Shown: positions 41,341 to 56,401 of the stretch, one piece after another
How positions within the stretch are numbered: the stretch's first letter is position 1
Layout: every line of letters begins with the position of its first letter
DNA from: Tritonibacter scottomollicae
Lineage (GTDB): Bacteria > Pseudomonadota > Alphaproteobacteria > Rhodobacterales > Rhodobacteraceae
NCBI RefSeq assembly: GCF_003003215.1
Contig: NZ_PVUF01000005.1
Span: 62,001 to 126,000, forward strand
DNA length: 64,000 bases
Direction of reading: 5' to 3'
Translations under genes and position numbers: made by a program
Notes under the pieces: generated by a model
Database searches by the model: none
What the model was told of the DNA's origin: nothing
Seen by the model: the letters and a program-made list of their open reading frames with translations, nothing else

Positions 41341-43506
41341 TTACGCGACGGCCTCGGCAAAGCTGGACCGGAACACCTGGCTCAATTCCTCAAGCGTGGC
41401 CTCGGAGCCACCGATTTTCACCGCGTCACCGGTAAATTTTCCAACCGTTTCCAGATGAACGCCGGATTGTCCGGCGGCGATCATCAGCGCCTCGGCCTGA
41501 TCGAAGTTGCAGGCCACAAGATAGCGCGCCTGATCCTCGCCAAACAGGGTCGGCGTGTCGGCAGCGTCGATCTGAACGCCGACTCCGGCCGCCTCGGCCA
41601 TCTCGAAGGCCGCCAGCACCAGCCCGCCATCGCTGATATCCGTGCAGGCCTTGATGAAGTCGCGATTGTTGCGGATGAATTCGCCGTTGCGCTTTTCCAG
41701 GTCCAGATCCACTGCAGGCGCATCGCCATCTTCGCGGTTGAAGACCTCGTGCAGCAGCGCTGATTGGCCGAGATGGCCGGTTGTCTCTCCGACCAGCAGC
41801 AGCACGTGACCGTCGCGGACCTCGCCCAGGATCGGCTCCTCATCGGCGGCGATCAGGCCGACGGCGCCGATGGTGGGCGTCGGCAGGATCGCCTGACCGT
41901 CGGTCTCGTTATAAAGCGAGACATTGCCGGAAACGATCGGCATATCGAGCGCCGAGACGGCCTCGCCGATGCCTTTCAGCGCGCCGACAAACTGGCCCAT
42001 GATCTCGGGCTTTTCGGGGTTGCCGAAGTTCAGGTTGTCGGTGGTTGCCAAGGGCTTGGCTCCCACAGCGCAGAGGTTGCGATAGGCTTCGGCCACCGCC
42101 TGCTTGCCGCCCTCGACCGGGTTCGCCTTGACGTAGCGCGGGGTCACGTCAGAGGTGAAGGCCAGCTTCTTGTTGGTGCCATGCACGCGCACAACGCCGC
42201 CACCCAGTCCGGGACGACGGGCGGTGTCGCCCATTACGGTGGTGTCATATTGCTCATAGACCCACTGTTTGCCGGCATAATTGGGCGAGGAGATCAGCGC
42301 CTTCAGCCCGTCGATCGGGTCGATGGTCGGCACATCCGCATCGGTCAGCGCCTCGGGGGCCTCGATCTCGATCCAGGGGCGGTCATATTCCGGCGCCGAG
42401 GAGGAGAGTTTTGACAGCGGCAGATCCGCCTTGACCTCACCATTGTGCAGGATCAGGAAGCGGTCCTCGGCAATGGTTTCGCCAACGATGGCAAAATCCA
42501 GATCCCATTTCTCGAACACTGCCTTGGCTTCGGCCTCAAGCTCGGGCTTCAGCACCATCAGCATGCGTTCCTGGGATTCCGACAGCATCATCTCGTAGGC
42601 TGTCATGCCCTCTTCGCGCTGGGGCACATCCTCTAGGTTCAGCTTGACGCCAAGCCCGCCCTTGTCGCCCATTTCCACAGCCGAGCAGGTCAGACCCGCG
42701 GCGCCCATGTCTTGAATGGAGATCACCGCGCCGGTCTGCATCAGCTCCAGCGTCGCCTCCATCAGGCGTTTCTCGGTGAAAGGATCGCCAACCTGCACGG
42801 TGGGGCGCTTTTCCTCGATGGTGTCGTCGAATTCCGCCGATGCCATGGTCGCACCGCCAACGCCATCACGGCCGGTCTTGGCGCCGAGGTAGACCACGGG
42901 CATGCCCACACCAGAGGCGGCGGAGTAGAAGATCATGTCGGTCTTCACCAGACCGGCGGCAAAGGCGTTCACGAGGCAATTGCCGTTGTAAGCCGGGTGG
43001 AAGCGCACTTCGCCGCCGACGCAAGGCACGCCGAAACAGTTGCCGTAGCCGCCAACGCCCTCAACCACGCCATTCACCAGCTGGCGCGTCTTGTGATGCG
43101 CCGGCTCGCCAAAGGACAGCGAGTTCATAGAGGCGATCGGGCGCGCGCCCATGGTGAAGACGTCACGCAAAATGCCGCCAACACCAGTGGCGGCACCTTG
43201 ATAGGGCTCGATGTAGGAGGGGTGGTTGTGGCTTTCCATCTTGAAGACGACCGCGTCGCCATCGCCGATGTCCACGATACCGGCGTTCTCGCCGGGGCCG
43301 CAGATCACCTGAGGGCCGGAGGTCGGCAGGGTGCGCAGCCATTTCTTTGAGGATTTGTAGGAACAATGCTCGTTCCACATGGCGGAGAAAATGCCGAGCT
43401 CGGTAAAAGTCGGCTCCCGGCCCATGATCTCGAGTATCAGATCGTACTCATCGGCATTCAGTCCGTGGCTTTCGATCACTTCAGGCGTAATGGCTGGTTC
43501 CTGCAT
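41341..43506 (-). CDS. purL: Phosphoribosylformylglycinamidine synthase subunit PurL
   Basis: PurL (721 residues) is the synthase subunit that makes formylglycinamidine ribonucleotide in purine synthesis, working with PurQ and PurS. Family motifs include [15 protein letters not shown] with the catalytic His, the ATP segment [20 protein letters not shown], and [17 protein letters not shown]. The second half ends with [16 protein letters not shown]. The length matches the small (three-subunit) type. purS and purQ are not adjacent in the window. Confidence 0.97.
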
Positions 43507-43808
43507 GGCGCTTAGATGGCCCCCCGGGTCGCTTCAGTTGACGGCCTTTTAAAGCAAGGCTGGGGGCGGGGAAAGGGGGCATGATAGGCGATGCGACGCG
43601 TCCTGAAACTGCCCGGAAAATGGGCGTGACGGAGGCAGCGTGCCTGAATGCAGGGCGAGGCGCGTGATTTGTCAGGGCTGTGCGGTGCGACCGCTACGCA
43701 TTGCCGGGTATCTATTGTAACTCTAATGCACTACATACGCAGAATGCTGAATGCGGCATGTTTGTCTCGGGCCCAGAGCACTGGGGCAGACAAGGCAGGC
43801 ATTGCGCC
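43507..43808. other. Intergenic region upstream of purL
   Basis: About 300 bases between the purL start and the ten-A tract hold no convincing gene on either strand. The purL promoter should lie here, but no clear -35/-10 pair was found. Short open frames on the + strand lack ribosome sites. Confidence 0.5.
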
Positions 43809-43839
43809 AAAAAAAAAAGGCCGAGCACTAAGCTCGGCC
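43809..43839 (-). terminator. Strong Rho-independent terminator with ten-T tail
   Basis: An 8-bp perfect GC-rich stem (43819-43826 with 43832-43839), a 5-nt loop and ten T on the minus strand. It lies 155 bases past the LysR stop codon, further than usual. Confidence 0.9.
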
Positions 43840-43900
43840 GTAGTCCAACAGGGAGGTATGAAGTGCGGCGTGTGCCGCGTCTTCATGAGGGTCATTTAGG
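43809..43900 (-). ncRNA. Candidate small RNA or 3'-UTR-derived RNA with anti-Shine-Dalgarno stretch
   Basis: Reading the minus strand, the sequence gives a stem-loop with ATGAAG/CTTCAT and GCGGC/GCCGC pairs (43858-43886). A single-stranded CCTCCC (43851-43856) within ACCTCCCTGTTGGACTA comes next. An 8-bp terminator stem (GGCCGAGC/GCTCGGCC, 43819-43839) follows, and then ten T (43809-43818). Stem-loop, exposed C/U-rich seed and poly-U terminator are the layout of Hfq-dependent regulatory RNAs. The 5' end is unknown. It could also be the processed 3' end of the upstream lysR transcript. Confidence 0.4.
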
Positions 43901-43993
43901 GTGCCCGCTTCGCTGTCGCAAGTGTTTTGGAACACAAGTTAAATCAAGCCCGCCATGCGTCGTGTGCATAGCTCGCATTAGTATGCGATAACT

Positions 43994-44899
43994 CTATATT
44001 TTTCCGAGTTCTTTCATGTGCTTACGGTGTGTGATGATCTCGTCCTGAACGAAGTCGCGGAAGGCAGAAACCCGCTGTGAGTGACGCAATTCCTCTGGGT
44101 AGGCGAGATAGACCGGAACACCGTTGCCATCTTCGTTCGGCAAAACCTGAACCAGATCCGGGAAATCCTCTGTCACATAGTCCGGCAGGACGCCGATCCC
44201 CAGATCCTGCAGCACACCCTGAAGTACGCCGAAATAGTTATTCACCGTCAGCATCGACTTTGGATTATGGGTCATCAGCTTTTGCACCATCACCGCAGCG
44301 GACCCCACTTGGGCGGACCGCAGGCTCTGACAGATCAAACGGTGGTCACAGATTTCTTCGATGGTCTCGGGCCAGCTGAACTTGTCGATATAGCCGCGCG
44401 ACGCATAAAGACGCATCTGCACGGTCATCAACCGCTTGCGGATCAGGTCGGCCTGGCTCGGCTCCTTCATGCGGATGGCGACATCGGCCTCACGCATCGG
44501 CAGGTCGAGCACACGCTCTTCCAGCATCAGGTCGATCTTCAGATTGGGGTACTGCTCATAAAGTTTGGCCAGCCGTGGCGCGAGCCAGAGCGTCCCAAAG
44601 CCAGTGGTGGTGGTCACCCGCAATTCGCCGAACACGCCTTCCTCGCTGTCGCGAATCCGGGCCGATGCGGTTTCGAGTCGTTTGGCCATCGTCTTGGTGG
44701 CGTCAAACAGCAGTTCACCTTGTTCTGTCAGGATCAATCCACGCGCATGACGGTGGAAGAGCGTGGCGTTCAGGCTCTCCTCCAGTCCCCGAATCTGCCG
44801 TGAAACGGCCGATTGAGACAGGTTTAGCCGATCACCGGCGTGGGTCAGACTGCCCGCATCCGCAACCGCGTGAAAGATCCTTAGCTTGTCCCAATCCAT
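43994..44899 (-). CDS. LysR-family transcriptional regulator
   Basis: This 301-residue regulator has an N-terminal winged helix (about 1-60, with AGSLTHAGDRLNLSQSAVSRQ) and a LysR effector domain (about 90-290). It is divergent from the indolepyruvate:ferredoxin oxidoreductase gene, which is the likely target. A tandem 10-base repeat lies just upstream of its start. The unusually long distance to its terminator leaves room for a 3' RNA. Confidence 0.93.
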   Translation of the reverse strand: MDWDKLRIFHAVADAGSLTHAGDRLNLSQSAVSRQIRGLEESLNATLFHRHARGLILTEQGELLFDATKTMAKRLETASARIRDSEEGVFGELRVTTTTGFGTLWLAPRLAKLYEQYPNLKIDLMLEERVLDLPMREADVAIRMKEPSQADLIRKRLMTVQMRLYASRGYIDKFSWPETIEEICDHRLICQSLRSAQVGSAAVMVQKLMTHNPKSMLTVNNYFGVLQGVLQDLGIGVLPDYVTEDFPDLVQVLPNEDGNGVPVYLAYPEELRHSQRVSAFRDFVQDEIITHRKHMKELGKI

Positions 44900-44907
44900 T
44901 GTTTTTA

Positions 44908-44928
44908 CTCTTTCTGCCTCTTTCTGCC
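44908..44928. repeat. Two tandem copies of a 10-base repeat upstream of lysR
   Basis: TCTTTCTGCC is repeated with an exact 10-base period, ending 29 bases upstream of the lysR start codon at 44899. One helical turn between copies would place a bound protein on the same face. On the minus strand the repeats also contain AGAAAGAG, which may serve as the ribosome site. Confidence 0.45.
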
Positions 44929-45067
44929 AAACTACATGATGAACAGTATAAGATTCAAACCTTACCGGAGGCTGACACGGATTCTTTAAGAAACGGCTAT
45001 ACAGGTCAGCATTTATGACCTATTATTGGATCCAAAATGCAAGCAAGTCATGGTTGAGGAGGACCGG

Positions 45068-48000
45068 ATGAGCACGCAAAAGATCTCGCTCAATGACCGT
45101 TATGATCTCGAAAAGTCGCCCATTCTGCTGAATGGCACGCAGGCGCTTGTGCGTCTGATGCTGATGCAGAAGGCGCGCGACGTGGCCGCCGGGCTGAACA
45201 CGGCAGGGCTGGTCACCGGCTATCGCGGCTCGCCGCTCGGCGCTGTCGACATGCAGATGAAGCGGGCGGAGAAACTGCTGACGCAGTCCGACGTGACATT
45301 CCAATACGGTCTCAACGAGGATCTCGCCGTCACCGCGCTCTGGGGGGCGCAGCAGGCTGAGATTCGCGATGAGGGCAAATACGACGGGGTATTTGGCCTG
45401 TGGTATGGCAAGGGCCCGGGCGTTGATCGCTCCGGCGATGCGCTACGCCATGCCAATATGGCCGGCTCTTCAAAACATGGCGGGGTTTTGGTCGCCATGG
45501 GCGATGACCACACCGGCGAAAGCTCCACCGTGCTGCATCAGTCGGAATGGTCCTTGCTGGATTGTTACCTGCCGATCGTCAGCCCGGCAGGGGTGCAGGA
45601 AATCCTCGACTACGGCATCTATGGCTATGCTTTGTCGCGGTTTTCCGGTCTCTGGGTTGGCCTGAAGACGATGAAGGACACCATCGAGGTGACCTCGGTG
45701 GTGGACGGAGATCCCGACCGGGTGCAAGTGTCGGTGCCGCAGTTCGACATGCCGGCGGATGGTCTGAACATCCGTCTGGACGATGACCGCTTCCGCCAGG
45801 AAGACCGCATCATCGACTACAAACGCTTTGCTGCCGAGGCCTTTAGCCATGCCAACAAGATGGACAAACGCGTCTGGGGCAAGCCCGGCGCCAAGATCGG
45901 CTTTGTTGCAGCGGGCAAGAACTGGCTGGATCTGGTTCACGCGCTAAGCCTTTTGAATATCGATGAAAACATGGCTGATCGCCTCGGGATCACCACCTAT
46001 AAGGTGGGGCAGACCTGGCCGATGGACATGAAGGGGTTCCATGACTGGGCCGAAGGGCTCGATCTGATCGTGGTGGTCGAAGAAAAGCGCAAGCTGATCG
46101 AGATCCAGATCAAGGAAGCGATCTTTGATGATCGGCGCGGGCGTCGTGTCTACGGCTGGTACAAGGGTGGCGCGGGCACCATGCACCGCGAGGAGCTGTT
46201 CCCGACCAAATATGCCCTCGACCCGATCATGATTGCCGAGAAACTGGGCAATATCCTGATCGAAGAAGGCCGCGACACCGAGGCGATCCGCGCCGGTCTT
46301 GCCTCGCTCGACGATGCCAAACGGGCCGACAATGCCGAGGAAATCGCCGCGCGTTTGCCGTATTTCTGTTCCGGCTGCCCGCATAACTCCTCCACCAAAC
46401 TGCCGGAGGGCTCACGGGCCTATGCGGGCATCGGCTGTCACTTCATGGTGCAGTGGATGGACCGCGAAACCGTTGGATTTACCCATATGGGCGGTGAAGG
46501 TGCGAACTGGATTGGCGAAGCGCCGTTCTCCAAAAGAAATCATGTATTTCAGAACCTTGGCGACGGAACTTACAATCACTCCGGGGTGATGGCGATCCGC
46601 GCGGCACTCGCCGAAGGAACCAATATCACCTATAAGATCCTCTATAATGACGCGGTTGCAATGACCGGTGGCCAGCAGGCCGAGGGTGGCCTCACCGCGC
46701 CGCAGATCGCCCATGAGCTGACCGCGATGGGGGTGAAGACCATCGCCGTGGTTTATGACGAAAAAGAAGACGTGGTCGCCAGCCAGTTCCCCTCCGGCAT
46801 GCGGATGCATGAGCGGGCCGAACTGATGAAGGTCCAGCGCGAGTTCGAGGAAGTGGGCGGCGTCTCCGCCATCATCTACATCCAGACCTGCGCGGCCGAA
46901 AAACGTCGCCGCCGCAAGAAGGGCCTGTTCCCGGACCCGGATCAACGCGTGCTCATCAACTCTGATGTCTGCGAGGGCTGCGGCGATTGCGGCGTGCAGT
47001 CGAACTGTGTGTCGATCGTACCGAAAGAGACCGAACTGGGCCGCAAGCGCGCCATCGACCAGTCCAGCTGCAACAAGGATTTCTCTTGCGTCAATGGGTT
47101 TTGCCCGTCGTTCCTCACCGTTGAGGGCGCCAAGGTGAAGAAGAGCGCCACCGCCAGCCTGGAGCTGCCGGAGCTGCCCGACCCGCAACTGCCCGCGATC
47201 CACGGCACCCATAACGTGGTGATCACCGGGGTTGGCGGCACCGGCGTTGTGACCATCGGCGCGGTGCTGGCACAGGCCGCCCAGATAGATGGCAAGGGCG
47301 CTGGCATGATGGAAATGGCAGGCCTCGCTCAAAAGGGCGGCGCGGTGCATATCCATTGCCGCATTGCCGAGCGGCCCTCCGACATCAGCGCCATCCGCGT
47401 CGCCACCGGCGAGGCGCACGCGCTGATCGGCGGCGATCTGGTGGTGAGCGCGGGGGCCAAGACCCTTGGACTGACCTCCACCGGGCGCACGGGCGCGGTG
47501 GTGAACAGCCATGAGATCATCACGGGAGAGTTTACCCGGAATACCGATTTTGCTTTGCCAAGCGATAGGTTGCAGATCGCACTTCAGGCGCGGATGCGCG
47601 ACCGGGTCGATCTGTTTGACGCGTCAGAGCTGGCGCGCATCAGCATGGGGGATTCGATCTTTTCCAACATGATGGTCTTTGGCGCGGCCTGGCAGCGGGG
47701 GCTAATCCCGGTGTCCTATGAGGCGCTGAAACAGGCGATCGAGCTGAATGGAGCTGCGGTCGAGAAGAACCTCCGCGCCTTTGATATCGGACGCTGGGCG
47801 GTGCTCTATCCCGAGGACGCTGCCAAACTGCTGGCGCCGAGCGTCGTTGAGCTGCCCAAGACGCTTGATGAGAAAATCGCCTATCGCCGGGCGCAGCTGG
47901 TGGACTACCAGGGCGAGCGGCTGGCGAAACGCTACGAGAAACTGGTGGCGGGTGTCTCCGATCCGCGGCTCAAGGAAGCGGTGGCAAAAGGTTATCACAA

Positions 48001-48487
48001 GCTCTTGTCCTACAAGGATGAATACGAGGTTGCCCGCCTGCTGCTGAGCAGCCGCGACAAGGCGGCGGCGGAGTTTGATGGCGATCTGAAGATCTCTTAC
48101 AACCTCGCACCGCCGATTCTGGGCGGCAAGGATGCCAATGGCCGCCCGAAAAAGCGCAAGTTCGGCCCCGGTACGGAACGGTTGTTGCGGATCCTGGCCA
48201 AGCTGAAGGGGCTGCGCGGCACGCCGCTGGATGTCTTTGGCTATACCGCCGAGCGCAAGATGGAGCGGGCGCTGATCAAGCAATATGAGACCGACATGAA
48301 GGAATGGCTCGCCAAATCCGACGCGGTAGACATGGATGCGCTGGTGGCGCTGGCGGAGCTGCCGTTGCAGATCCGTGGCTTTGGCCCTGTCAAAATGAAG
48401 AGCGAACAGCAGGCTGCCAAGCGGCGCGAGGAACTGCTGGTGGCGCTGAAACAGGGGCCTGCGCCGCTGAAGGCTGCCGCCGAATAG
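45068..48487 (+). CDS. Indolepyruvate:ferredoxin oxidoreductase, fused alpha-beta type
   Basis: This 1139-residue enzyme oxidatively decarboxylates aryl or branched 2-oxoacids, from amino acid breakdown, to acyl-CoA, passing electrons to ferredoxin. The N-terminal part (about 1-630) holds thiamine-diphosphate domains (YRGSPLGAVDMQM; GEGANWIGEAPF). A Cys cluster CEGCGDCGVQSNC near residue 635 and another (SCNKDFSCVNGFC) mark the iron-sulfur region. The gamma-type domain starts around 710 with ITGVGGTGVVTIGAVLAQA. A long C-terminal domain completes the aerobic fused form. The start at 45068 follows GAGGAGG. A LysR gene is divergent. Confidence 0.94.
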   Translation: MSTQKISLNDRYDLEKSPILLNGTQALVRLMLMQKARDVAAGLNTAGLVTGYRGSPLGAVDMQMKRAEKLLTQSDVTFQYGLNEDLAVTALWGAQQAEIRDEGKYDGVFGLWYGKGPGVDRSGDALRHANMAGSSKHGGVLVAMGDDHTGESSTVLHQSEWSLLDCYLPIVSPAGVQEILDYGIYGYALSRFSGLWVGLKTMKDTIEVTSVVDGDPDRVQVSVPQFDMPADGLNIRLDDDRFRQEDRIIDYKRFAAEAFSHANKMDKRVWGKPGAKIGFVAAGKNWLDLVHALSLLNIDENMADRLGITTYKVGQTWPMDMKGFHDWAEGLDLIVVVEEKRKLIEIQIKEAIFDDRRGRRVYGWYKGGAGTMHREELFPTKYALDPIMIAEKLGNILIEEGRDTEAIRAGLASLDDAKRADNAEEIAARLPYFCSGCPHNSSTKLPEGSRAYAGIGCHFMVQWMDRETVGFTHMGGEGANWIGEAPFSKRNHVFQNLGDGTYNHSGVMAIRAALAEGTNITYKILYNDAVAMTGGQQAEGGLTAPQIAHELTAMGVKTIAVVYDEKEDVVASQFPSGMRMHERAELMKVQREFEEVGGVSAIIYIQTCAAEKRRRRKKGLFPDPDQRVLINSDVCEGCGDCGVQSNCVSIVPKETELGRKRAIDQSSCNKDFSCVNGFCPSFLTVEGAKVKKSATASLELPELPDPQLPAIHGTHNVVITGVGGTGVVTIGAVLAQAAQIDGKGAGMMEMAGLAQKGGAVHIHCRIAERPSDISAIRVATGEAHALIGGDLVVSAGAKTLGLTSTGRTGAVVNSHEIITGEFTRNTDFALPSDRLQIALQARMRDRVDLFDASELARISMGDSIFSNMMVFGAAWQRGLIPVSYEALKQAIELNGAAVEKNLRAFDIGRWAVLYPEDAAKLLAPSVVELPKTLDEKIAYRRAQLVDYQGERLAKRYEKLVAGVSDPRLKEAVAKGYHKLLSYKDEYEVARLLLSSRDKAAAEFDGDLKISYNLAPPILGGKDANGRPKKRKFGPGTERLLRILAKLKGLRGTPLDVFGYTAERKMERALIKQYETDMKEWLAKSDAVDMDALVALAELPLQIRGFGPVKMKSEQQAAKRREELLVALKQGPAPLKAAAE

Positions 48488-55666: not shown

Positions 55667-55873
55667 GTGCGCCCGTGTGCATGCGGGTGATGGATTGCCG
55701 GGATCTGCGGGATTTGCTATGCAGGGTTTGGTCCGCAGTTCACCAAGGCTCCGCCACGCGCTAAACCTGCGAGTTTTCTGAGGTCATTGGACTCCCAATC
55801 GGGGTGCCTCTGGACAAGGGCGGACATCCGCATGGCGCAGGCCATGTCCGGCATCCTGAAAACGGAGGACATG

Positions 55874-56401
55874 ATGTCCAAGGATGTGATCCGTCTGACC
55901 ATTCCCGATGTGTCGGATTTTGCCAAACAGCTGCGTGCCAAGCTTCCCGAAAGCCCCGGCCATGTGGAAATGCTGAACCATGTGGCGCGCGCGGCGGGCT
56001 ACCGCAATTTTCAACAGCTGCGCAGCCAGAACCCGCCCGGCCCGGAAATCGACCGCAAGCGGATCGAGCGCGCGGCACGCTATTTCGACGAGCGCGGACG
56101 CTGGCAGAGCTGGCCGACCAAACGCGGCGTGCGCGAGCTGTGCCTCTGGGTGATCTGGGCGCGACTGCCCGCGCGCCAGAGCTGGAGCGAGCGCGAAATC
56201 AGCGCCCTGATCGACGAGGAAACCCTGTTTCGGGACGCGGCTCAGGTCCGGCGCAGCCTGGTCGAGATGCAGCTTTTGACCCGTGACCGCGACGGCTCCA
56301 ACTATGCCAGGGTCGAGCGGGCGATGGATCCGCATGGGCTGGCGCTGATGGCAGACCTTGAGGCACGCCGGAAAACGCGGGAAAATCCCGATATTGCCTG
56401 A
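55874..56401 (+). CDS. DUF2087 domain protein
   Basis: This 175-residue protein has an N-terminal part (about 1-50) with HVEMLNHVARAAGYRNFQQL. A DUF2087 domain follows (about 65-150), recognised by GRWQSWPTKRGVRELCLWVI and SLVEMQLLTRDRDGSNYARV. DUF2087 is winged-helix-like and is often attached to regulators, so DNA binding is possible. The ATG at 55874 sits five bases after GGAGG; ATG 55871 is the alternative. It is monocistronic. Confidence 0.85.
   Translation: MSKDVIRLTIPDVSDFAKQLRAKLPESPGHVEMLNHVARAAGYRNFQQLRSQNPPGPEIDRKRIERAARYFDERGRWQSWPTKRGVRELCLWVIWARLPARQSWSEREISALIDEETLFRDAAQVRRSLVEMQLLTRDRDGSNYARVERAMDPHGLALMADLEARRKTRENPDIA

Follow-up and report, generated by a model that had tools for sequence, protein, structure and literature searches.

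The stretch of DNA analyzed here, called the window, comprises 64,000 nucleotides (nt) of Tritonibacter scottomollicae contig NZ_PVUF01000005.1. Between a lysR gene and purL, it almost certainly contains a small regulatory RNA (sRNA) gene, the marine-bacterial version of the Rhodobacter stress RNA SorY. Positions 43886-43809 of the minus strand consist, in order, of a hairpin, a linker containing CCUCCCUGUUGGAC and a terminator. The predicted transcript (43809..43886, minus strand) runs from 43886 or 43885 to approximately 43809, as judged from the Rfam match, the synteny and a 5' end counted from the -35 element. The 5' hairpin (AUGAAG...CUUCAU; 43858..43886) was identified by RNA folding together with the closed hairpins and arm swaps of relatives, the linker carries a 14-base anti-Shine-Dalgarno (anti-SD) core, CCTCCCTGTTGGAC (43843..43856), that is conserved after lysR, and the Rho-independent terminator (43809..43839) has a stem of 8 pairs, 7 of them G-C, at 43839-43819 followed by ten T at 43818-43809. 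The lysR stop codon ends at 43994, 155 bases ahead of the terminator stem. A first-pass annotation, made from the letters of the sequence, had described the hairpin, the ten T and the lysR-terminator gap correctly to the base.

We kept the best 80 lysR homologues from a search of genome contigs as relatives. In 72 of these 80 loci the core (exact in 71) follows lysR by no more than 700 nt, and the lysR-to-core distance ranges from 100 to 318 nt. Among the loci lacking it in that range (L040, L041, L042, L067, L070, L092, L099 and L110), L042 has just 154 nt of sequence downstream of lysR, and an exact core occurs further away in L040, L041, L070 and L092. The 72 relatives with the core, the window and Rhodobacter sphaeroides make up the 74 loci to which the following counts refer. 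In single folds, a 5' hairpin closes ahead of the core in 73/74 loci (the exception is L071), and a terminator hairpin, with alternative pair types, is found in all 74. In an arm-swap test of 66 distinct pairs, hairpin arms folded with their own partners at -13.3 kcal/mol and with swapped partners at -9.8 kcal/mol on average, although foreign 3' arms that pair at least as well are not rare: they make up 15% for the median sequence and at most 20% for 40 of 66. One result speaks against a conserved fold: RNAalifold, run on a MAFFT alignment of 71 of the 74 sequences (near-duplicates L049, L051 and L078 omitted), recovered neither hairpin. Because it saw only a 2-bp hairpin within the core, single folds and arm swaps were counted instead. 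The length of the 5' hairpin varies between loci in steps not divisible by three, so a coding function was set aside. The first-pass annotation had proposed a trans-acting sRNA arrangement with an anti-SD seed, and this arrangement is supported, with conservation that extends well past close relatives.

The 85-nt RNA folds at -34.4 kcal/mol (z -5.68), and none of 200 shuffled sequences folded as well. The terminator alone is within chance, as 2 terminator-like sites occur in 43000-45500 against 2.2 expected; what places the element beyond chance is the Rfam match described below and the conservation. That density of terminator-like sites would suit a reading in which the element is simply the terminator of lysR and the C-rich linker is incidental. 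However, a terminator needs neither a 14-base core conserved between genera of Rhodobacteraceae, nor a structured 5' hairpin, nor a promoter pattern, and we consider this explanation extremely improbable. The CCUCCC stretch had been described as single-stranded. It is open in the centroid fold of the window RNA, but in none of the 74 minimum-energy folds are all six bases unpaired, because a marginal 2-bp hairpin with GG takes up the final two C.

At its gathering thresholds, Rfam reports the element as SorX (RF02784; 43893-43813, 53.8 bits against a cut-off of 46.6, E 1.3e-12 in a search of 301 bases). A permissive scan also returned SorY (RF02651) over 43883-43811 with 52.4 bits, below its cut-off of 111. 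The segment, which no gene had seemed to explain, holds an RNA that is not new in kind: by Rfam and gene order it belongs to the SorY/SorX family. SorX-type matches are present in 236/248 genomes of the bacterial family at E 0.001, with 197/248 above the cut-off and 1 to 6 matches per positive genome. At least five of these genomes have two matches less than about 650 bases apart (G190:C76, G148:C3, G210:C3, G182:C35 and G022:C183), which suggests tandem duplication.

Three SorX-type places exist in the genome that contains the window: C2:349027 (90 bits), the window element, and C5:201136 (39.1 bits, below the cut-off). The first, at G000:C2:349027-349100 (L001 1501-1574), is the SorX of this genome. 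It lies between open reading frames (ORFs) that read by eye as OmpR-like and exonuclease-III-like, and the ORF ahead of it, a 228-aa OmpR-type regulator by eye, reproduces the setting of R. sphaeroides SorX. The window copy does not lie in the 3' untranslated region (3'UTR) of an OmpR-type gene, since its upstream gene is lysR. The third place, at G000:C5:201136-201241 on the minus strand (L003 1501-1606), holds a SorX/SorY-like sRNA whose core is a variant, CCTCCCTGTCAGAC; it is oriented away from an ORF judged by eye to encode an ATPase.

Statements on published work here rest on excerpts of the cited papers, and those on SorX and SorY on papers that cite the original descriptions. In R. sphaeroides, the 5' ends of SorX and SorY are reported at 2,598,224 and 1,632,642, respectively (PMC6238624). 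Genome G051 has SorX at C4:2598225 and an sRNA with the core at 1632683, and we took it to be R. sphaeroides 2.4.1 because both RNAs sit at the published coordinates. Its C4:1624000-1642000 region contains a lysR gene 73% identical to that of the window, the sRNA, purL (77%) and a divergent ior gene (71%). In the window, purL (41341..43506, minus strand; Pfam AIRS, AIRS_C and FGAR-AT linker) is the downstream neighbor, and the divergent upstream neighbor is an indolepyruvate oxidoreductase gene (45026..48487, plus strand; Pfam POR and TPP_enzyme_C), which we take to be ior. Gene order and strands, ior-lysR-sRNA-purL, are thus alike at the two loci.

Because the gene order is that of SorY, while a better SorX sits elsewhere in the genome, we read the window element as the SorY orthologue, and on this evidence the SorX label from Rfam is misleading. 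The element resembles R. sphaeroides SorX (RSs2461) in its core and terminator layout and in exceeding the SorX cut-off; it differs in that a separate SorX lies at C2:349027 of the same genome. With R. sphaeroides SorY (RSs1543) it shares, besides the gene order, an identical CUUCAUACCUCCCUGUUGGACU, the promoter pattern and the terminator, and it differs in the length and sequence of the 5' hairpin and in its Rfam score (52.4 against 111). What is claimed from synteny is orthology to SorY, not assignment to RF02651. As the cut-off is roughly twice the score of a syntenic orthologue, the Rfam SorY model appears to be calibrated on near relatives of R. sphaeroides. The main text of a Ruegeria pomeroyi sRNA catalogue (PMC4809877), as excerpted, mentions neither SorX nor SorY; its coordinates are in the supplements.

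SorY of R. sphaeroides has its own promoter, and SorX is derived from a 3'UTR (PMC6238624). A candidate -35 element, CTTG, lies at 43919..43922 on the minus strand, and CTTG is found 50-85 nt upstream of the core in 74/74 loci (mononucleotide shuffles: mean 10, maximum 19). The candidate -10 element, CCTAAAT (43894..43900, minus strand), would make this an RpoH-type promoter: its C-14, T-13, A-12 and T-9 fit the RpoHII/RpoHI logos, in which TTG at -36 to -34, C-14 and T-13 mark RpoHII, T-9 and C-37 mark RpoHI, and A-12 is common to both (PMC3441632). With a start at 43885, CTTG...CCTAAAT of the window matches these positions. At the right distance, CCTAAAT itself occurs in 31/74 loci and the pattern C[CT]TANN[TG] in 60/74, with 14 loci departing from it. 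Starts were predicted by counting 36 bases on from the C of CTTG (in L050 and L108 they were assigned manually), and in all 74 loci the first paired base of the hairpin coincides with the predicted start or is one base off. For R. sphaeroides SorY the predicted start, 1,632,643, is one base from the published end, or two by the numbering of PMC3441632.

The first-pass annotation had proposed an RNA derived from the 3' end of lysR. In its strongest form, this alternative makes the window RNA a SorX that RNase E releases from the 3' end of the lysR transcript, which would suit the Rfam family that passes its gathering score, the 3'UTR origin of R. sphaeroides SorX (PMC6238624) and the presence of lysR upstream on the same strand. 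We regard it as improbable: the 90-bit SorX lies elsewhere in the genome, the gene order is that of SorY, and CTTG (74/74) and the -10 pattern (60/74) are retained although the core lies anywhere from 100 to 318 nt past lysR. Because both promoter elements are conserved and the hairpin begins at the predicted start, the RNA probably comes from a separate gene rather than from a 3'UTR. The proposal of a 3'-derived RNA thus gives way to a promoter like that of R. sphaeroides SorY, conserved at the 74 loci, and we hold with considerable confidence that the element is a SorY orthologue with its own putative promoter.

The gene upstream of the sRNA (43994..44899, minus strand; Pfam HTH_1 and LysR_substrate) encodes a LsrB-like LysR protein of 301 aa. 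Its best match in the PDB is 9hh1 (E 1.9e-70; next 5.5e-29), which is Agrobacterium tumefaciens LsrB (PMC11975290). The two proteins are 40% identical overall, with 47/64 identical residues at the N-terminus. The only cysteines of the window protein are at positions 184 and 190, so the redox chemistry of LsrB is not implied. Among the best 25 of 55 LysR families in NCBIfam, none reached its cut-off.

Upstream of the -35 element we found a conserved dyad with the consensus GCYATGC-N7-GCATAGC, which has the T-N11-A form of LysR sites. In the window, the candidate box ATGC-N7-GCAT lies at 43955..43969 (minus strand). It is present in 64/74 loci, against a mean of 0.1 and a maximum of 2 in shuffled sequences, at -47 relative to the -35 element in 54 loci and at -46 in 9. 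The strict LsrB/VtlR site, GCAT-N3-TG-N3-T, is found in 3/74 loci and the relaxed form GCAT-N3-[GT]G-N3-T in 46/74, and the lysR gene is not beside trxB. Direct control of the sRNA gene by the adjacent LysR is, in our estimate, slightly favored.

The targets described for SorY and SorX in R. sphaeroides are the transporter genes takP and potA (PMC6238624 among the sources). We paired ribosome-site regions with the seed, with control seeds permuted after CCUCCC and start codons picked by rule. For the genome of the window, 47 genes for transporter binding proteins (14 DctP, 16 SBP_bac_5 and 17 SBP_bac_8) were compared with 653 ORFs taken from the window and 800 kb of further sequence. Pairing beyond the Shine-Dalgarno (SD) sequence was stronger for the binding-protein genes (median -1.84 against -0.58 kcal/mol, p 1.6e-4). 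The most enriched 5-mer outside the SD was CAACA (uncorrected p 0.0012), found near the ribosome sites of 8/47 binding-protein genes and 21/653 ORFs.

The same 5-mer recurred in other genera. Among 30 SBP_bac_5 loci from eight other genera, 12 had CAACA (best scramble, 5). A replicate set, chosen after the idea had formed, consisted of the next 40 of 107 SBP_bac_5 matches from other genera in rank order, and its background was 276 ORFs, drawn from 400 kb of sequence in seven of these genomes. CAACA occurred in 11/40 of these loci (best scramble, 7) and 0/276 background ORFs, and pairing beyond the SD had a median of -3.13 against -0.44 kcal/mol (p 6e-4). In both sets CAACA exceeded all nine of its scrambles. 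In the register of the core beside the SD, as CAACA[AG]0-2GG, it was found in 5/47, 7/30 and 7/40 binding-protein genes of the three sets, compared to 7/653 and 0/276 ORFs. In 30 binding-protein genes from 12 genomes without a SorX match, CAACA was present in 2/30 and the register form in 0/30, with no excess pairing.

Several observations weigh against a transporter regulon. Compared with A-rich leaders of the same genome, the enrichment weakened (CAACA, p 0.028; pairing, p 0.0015). Leaders of binding-protein genes are A/C-rich, and scrambles were also enriched in the replicate set (ACCAA 7/40 and ACAAC 4/40, against 3 and 0 of 276). The loci from genomes without a SorX match are more AT-rich (0.49 vs 0.36), and these genomes may hold missed copies. 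Orthologues from several genomes were counted more than once, and background ORFs may include some binding-protein genes. Genome-wide, the extended complement was not enriched over the reversed pattern (84+69 vs 72+68 in the genome of the window; 70+77 vs 80+87 in R. sphaeroides). Finally, this genome has no takP orthologue at E 1e-100, its takP relatives being only 34-37% identical, and extended pairing is not conserved in takP-like genes (3/22 at or below 0.05).

Several of these points would suit a SorY orthologue with few specific targets, for example one transporter of the tripartite ATP-independent periplasmic (TRAP) type, with CAACA acting as an A/C-rich enhancer of translation that has nothing to do with the sRNA. 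The lack of genome-wide enrichment, the A/C-rich leaders and the partly enriched scrambles are all as it would have them. However, it does not lead one to expect CAACA to outdo every scramble in both sets or to stand in the core register in 7/30 and 7/40 loci when the 276 background ORFs and the 30 genes from genomes without a SorX match have none, and we give this explanation a real chance, though well short of even. That the sRNA controls a regulon of transporter binding-protein mRNAs has, in our view, a little better than an even chance. The earlier statement that the seed could bind many mRNAs thus becomes narrower: the extended complement gathers at genes for transporter binding proteins and shows no genome-wide excess.

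The takP leader of R. sphaeroides pairs with the core at -24.2 kcal/mol. As a conserved target, takP was rejected for this clade, given the missing orthologue, which is a further difference from R. sphaeroides SorY, and the poor pairing of takP-like genes. We also observed that the leader of a TRAP binding-protein gene (G000:C9:116398-117429; L200) carries a long complement of the core, TAGTCCGACAGAGGAG, pairing at -26.4 kcal/mol. Among 29 orthologues of this gene (31 matches minus one partial and one without a locus), the long complement is present in 4, its own genome counted, and pairing beyond the SD is at or below 0.05 in 16.

Elsewhere in the window, Rfam matched a COG3860 RNA (RF02940; 55729-55772, plus strand, 50.2 bits), a candidate cis-regulatory element that directly precedes a 204-aa ORF with a DUF2087 domain (55787-56401).

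From these data, we propose that RNA polymerase with an RpoH sigma factor would make an RNA of approximately 75-78 nt under stress, and that the adjacent LsrB-like LysR may bind the conserved dyad and tune its transcription. Hfq would hold the RNA, by analogy with R. sphaeroides SorY, which is Hfq-bound (PMC5036791, PMC7866481). In mRNAs for periplasmic binding proteins of TRAP and ATP-binding cassette (ABC) transporters, CCUCCCUGUUGG would pair with the SD and with CCAACA just upstream, blocking ribosomes and cutting nutrient import. Such a cut in import would agree with what has been reported for SorY and takP.

These features suggest, on sequence grounds, an AbcR-like transporter regulator. 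The AbcR1/AbcR2 RNAs (alpha-r15) of Rhizobiales resemble the window sRNA in having a LysR gene (vtlR/lsrB) just upstream in A. tumefaciens and in carrying anti-SD motifs. They also act on transporter mRNAs and are transcribed under LsrB or RpoH1 (PMC8844928, PMC7486931), for which the window sRNA has putative counterparts. One report has LsrB activating AbcR1 of Sinorhizobium meliloti through GCAT-N3-TG-N3-T and RpoH1 driving AbcR2 (PMC8844928), whereas another report found no LsrB effect in S. meliloti and placed A. tumefaciens AbcR1 under VtlR control (PMC7486931). The AbcR RNAs differ in having two anti-SD motifs, one of them in the loop of the 5' hairpin, a length of 114-121 nt in S. meliloti, and trxB and arsR as neighbors; the window sRNA has one anti-SD motif, in the linker. 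Rfam holds a model for AbcR, and it was not among the 7 families returned for the window sRNA at E up to 1. A further likeness, if the transporter regulon holds, is to GcvB of enterobacteria, which acts at C/A-rich sites close to start codons to repress many transporter mRNAs and differs in sequence, size, promoter and regulator.

Our literature search found no paper naming both SorX and AbcR1. What is new here is the conserved LysR box, the reassignment of the locus from SorX to SorY and a tentative case that SorX and SorY jointly act on transporter mRNAs in the manner of AbcR. Tentatively, and at a little less than an even chance, SorX and SorY may be siblings with a common seed and, in Rhodobacteraceae, correspond to the rhizobial LsrB-AbcR system, of which they may even represent a diverged homologue; a LsrB-like LysR beside sorY would then, together with RpoH, drive an anti-SD sRNA that represses many binding-protein mRNAs. 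LsrB has been described as unique to Rhizobiales (PMC11975290, 2025); if this correspondence holds, LsrB-type sRNA control would reach beyond that order. At the least, the annotation is corrected, as Rfam-based pipelines will label the SorY locus as SorX, and the LysR box makes a regulator of SorY directly testable. If the regulon is real, two Rhodobacter stress RNAs, each with one described transporter target in the excerpts cited above, would be tied to rhizobial AbcR, and one nearly invariant 14-base seed would set nutrient uptake under stress across widespread marine bacteria.
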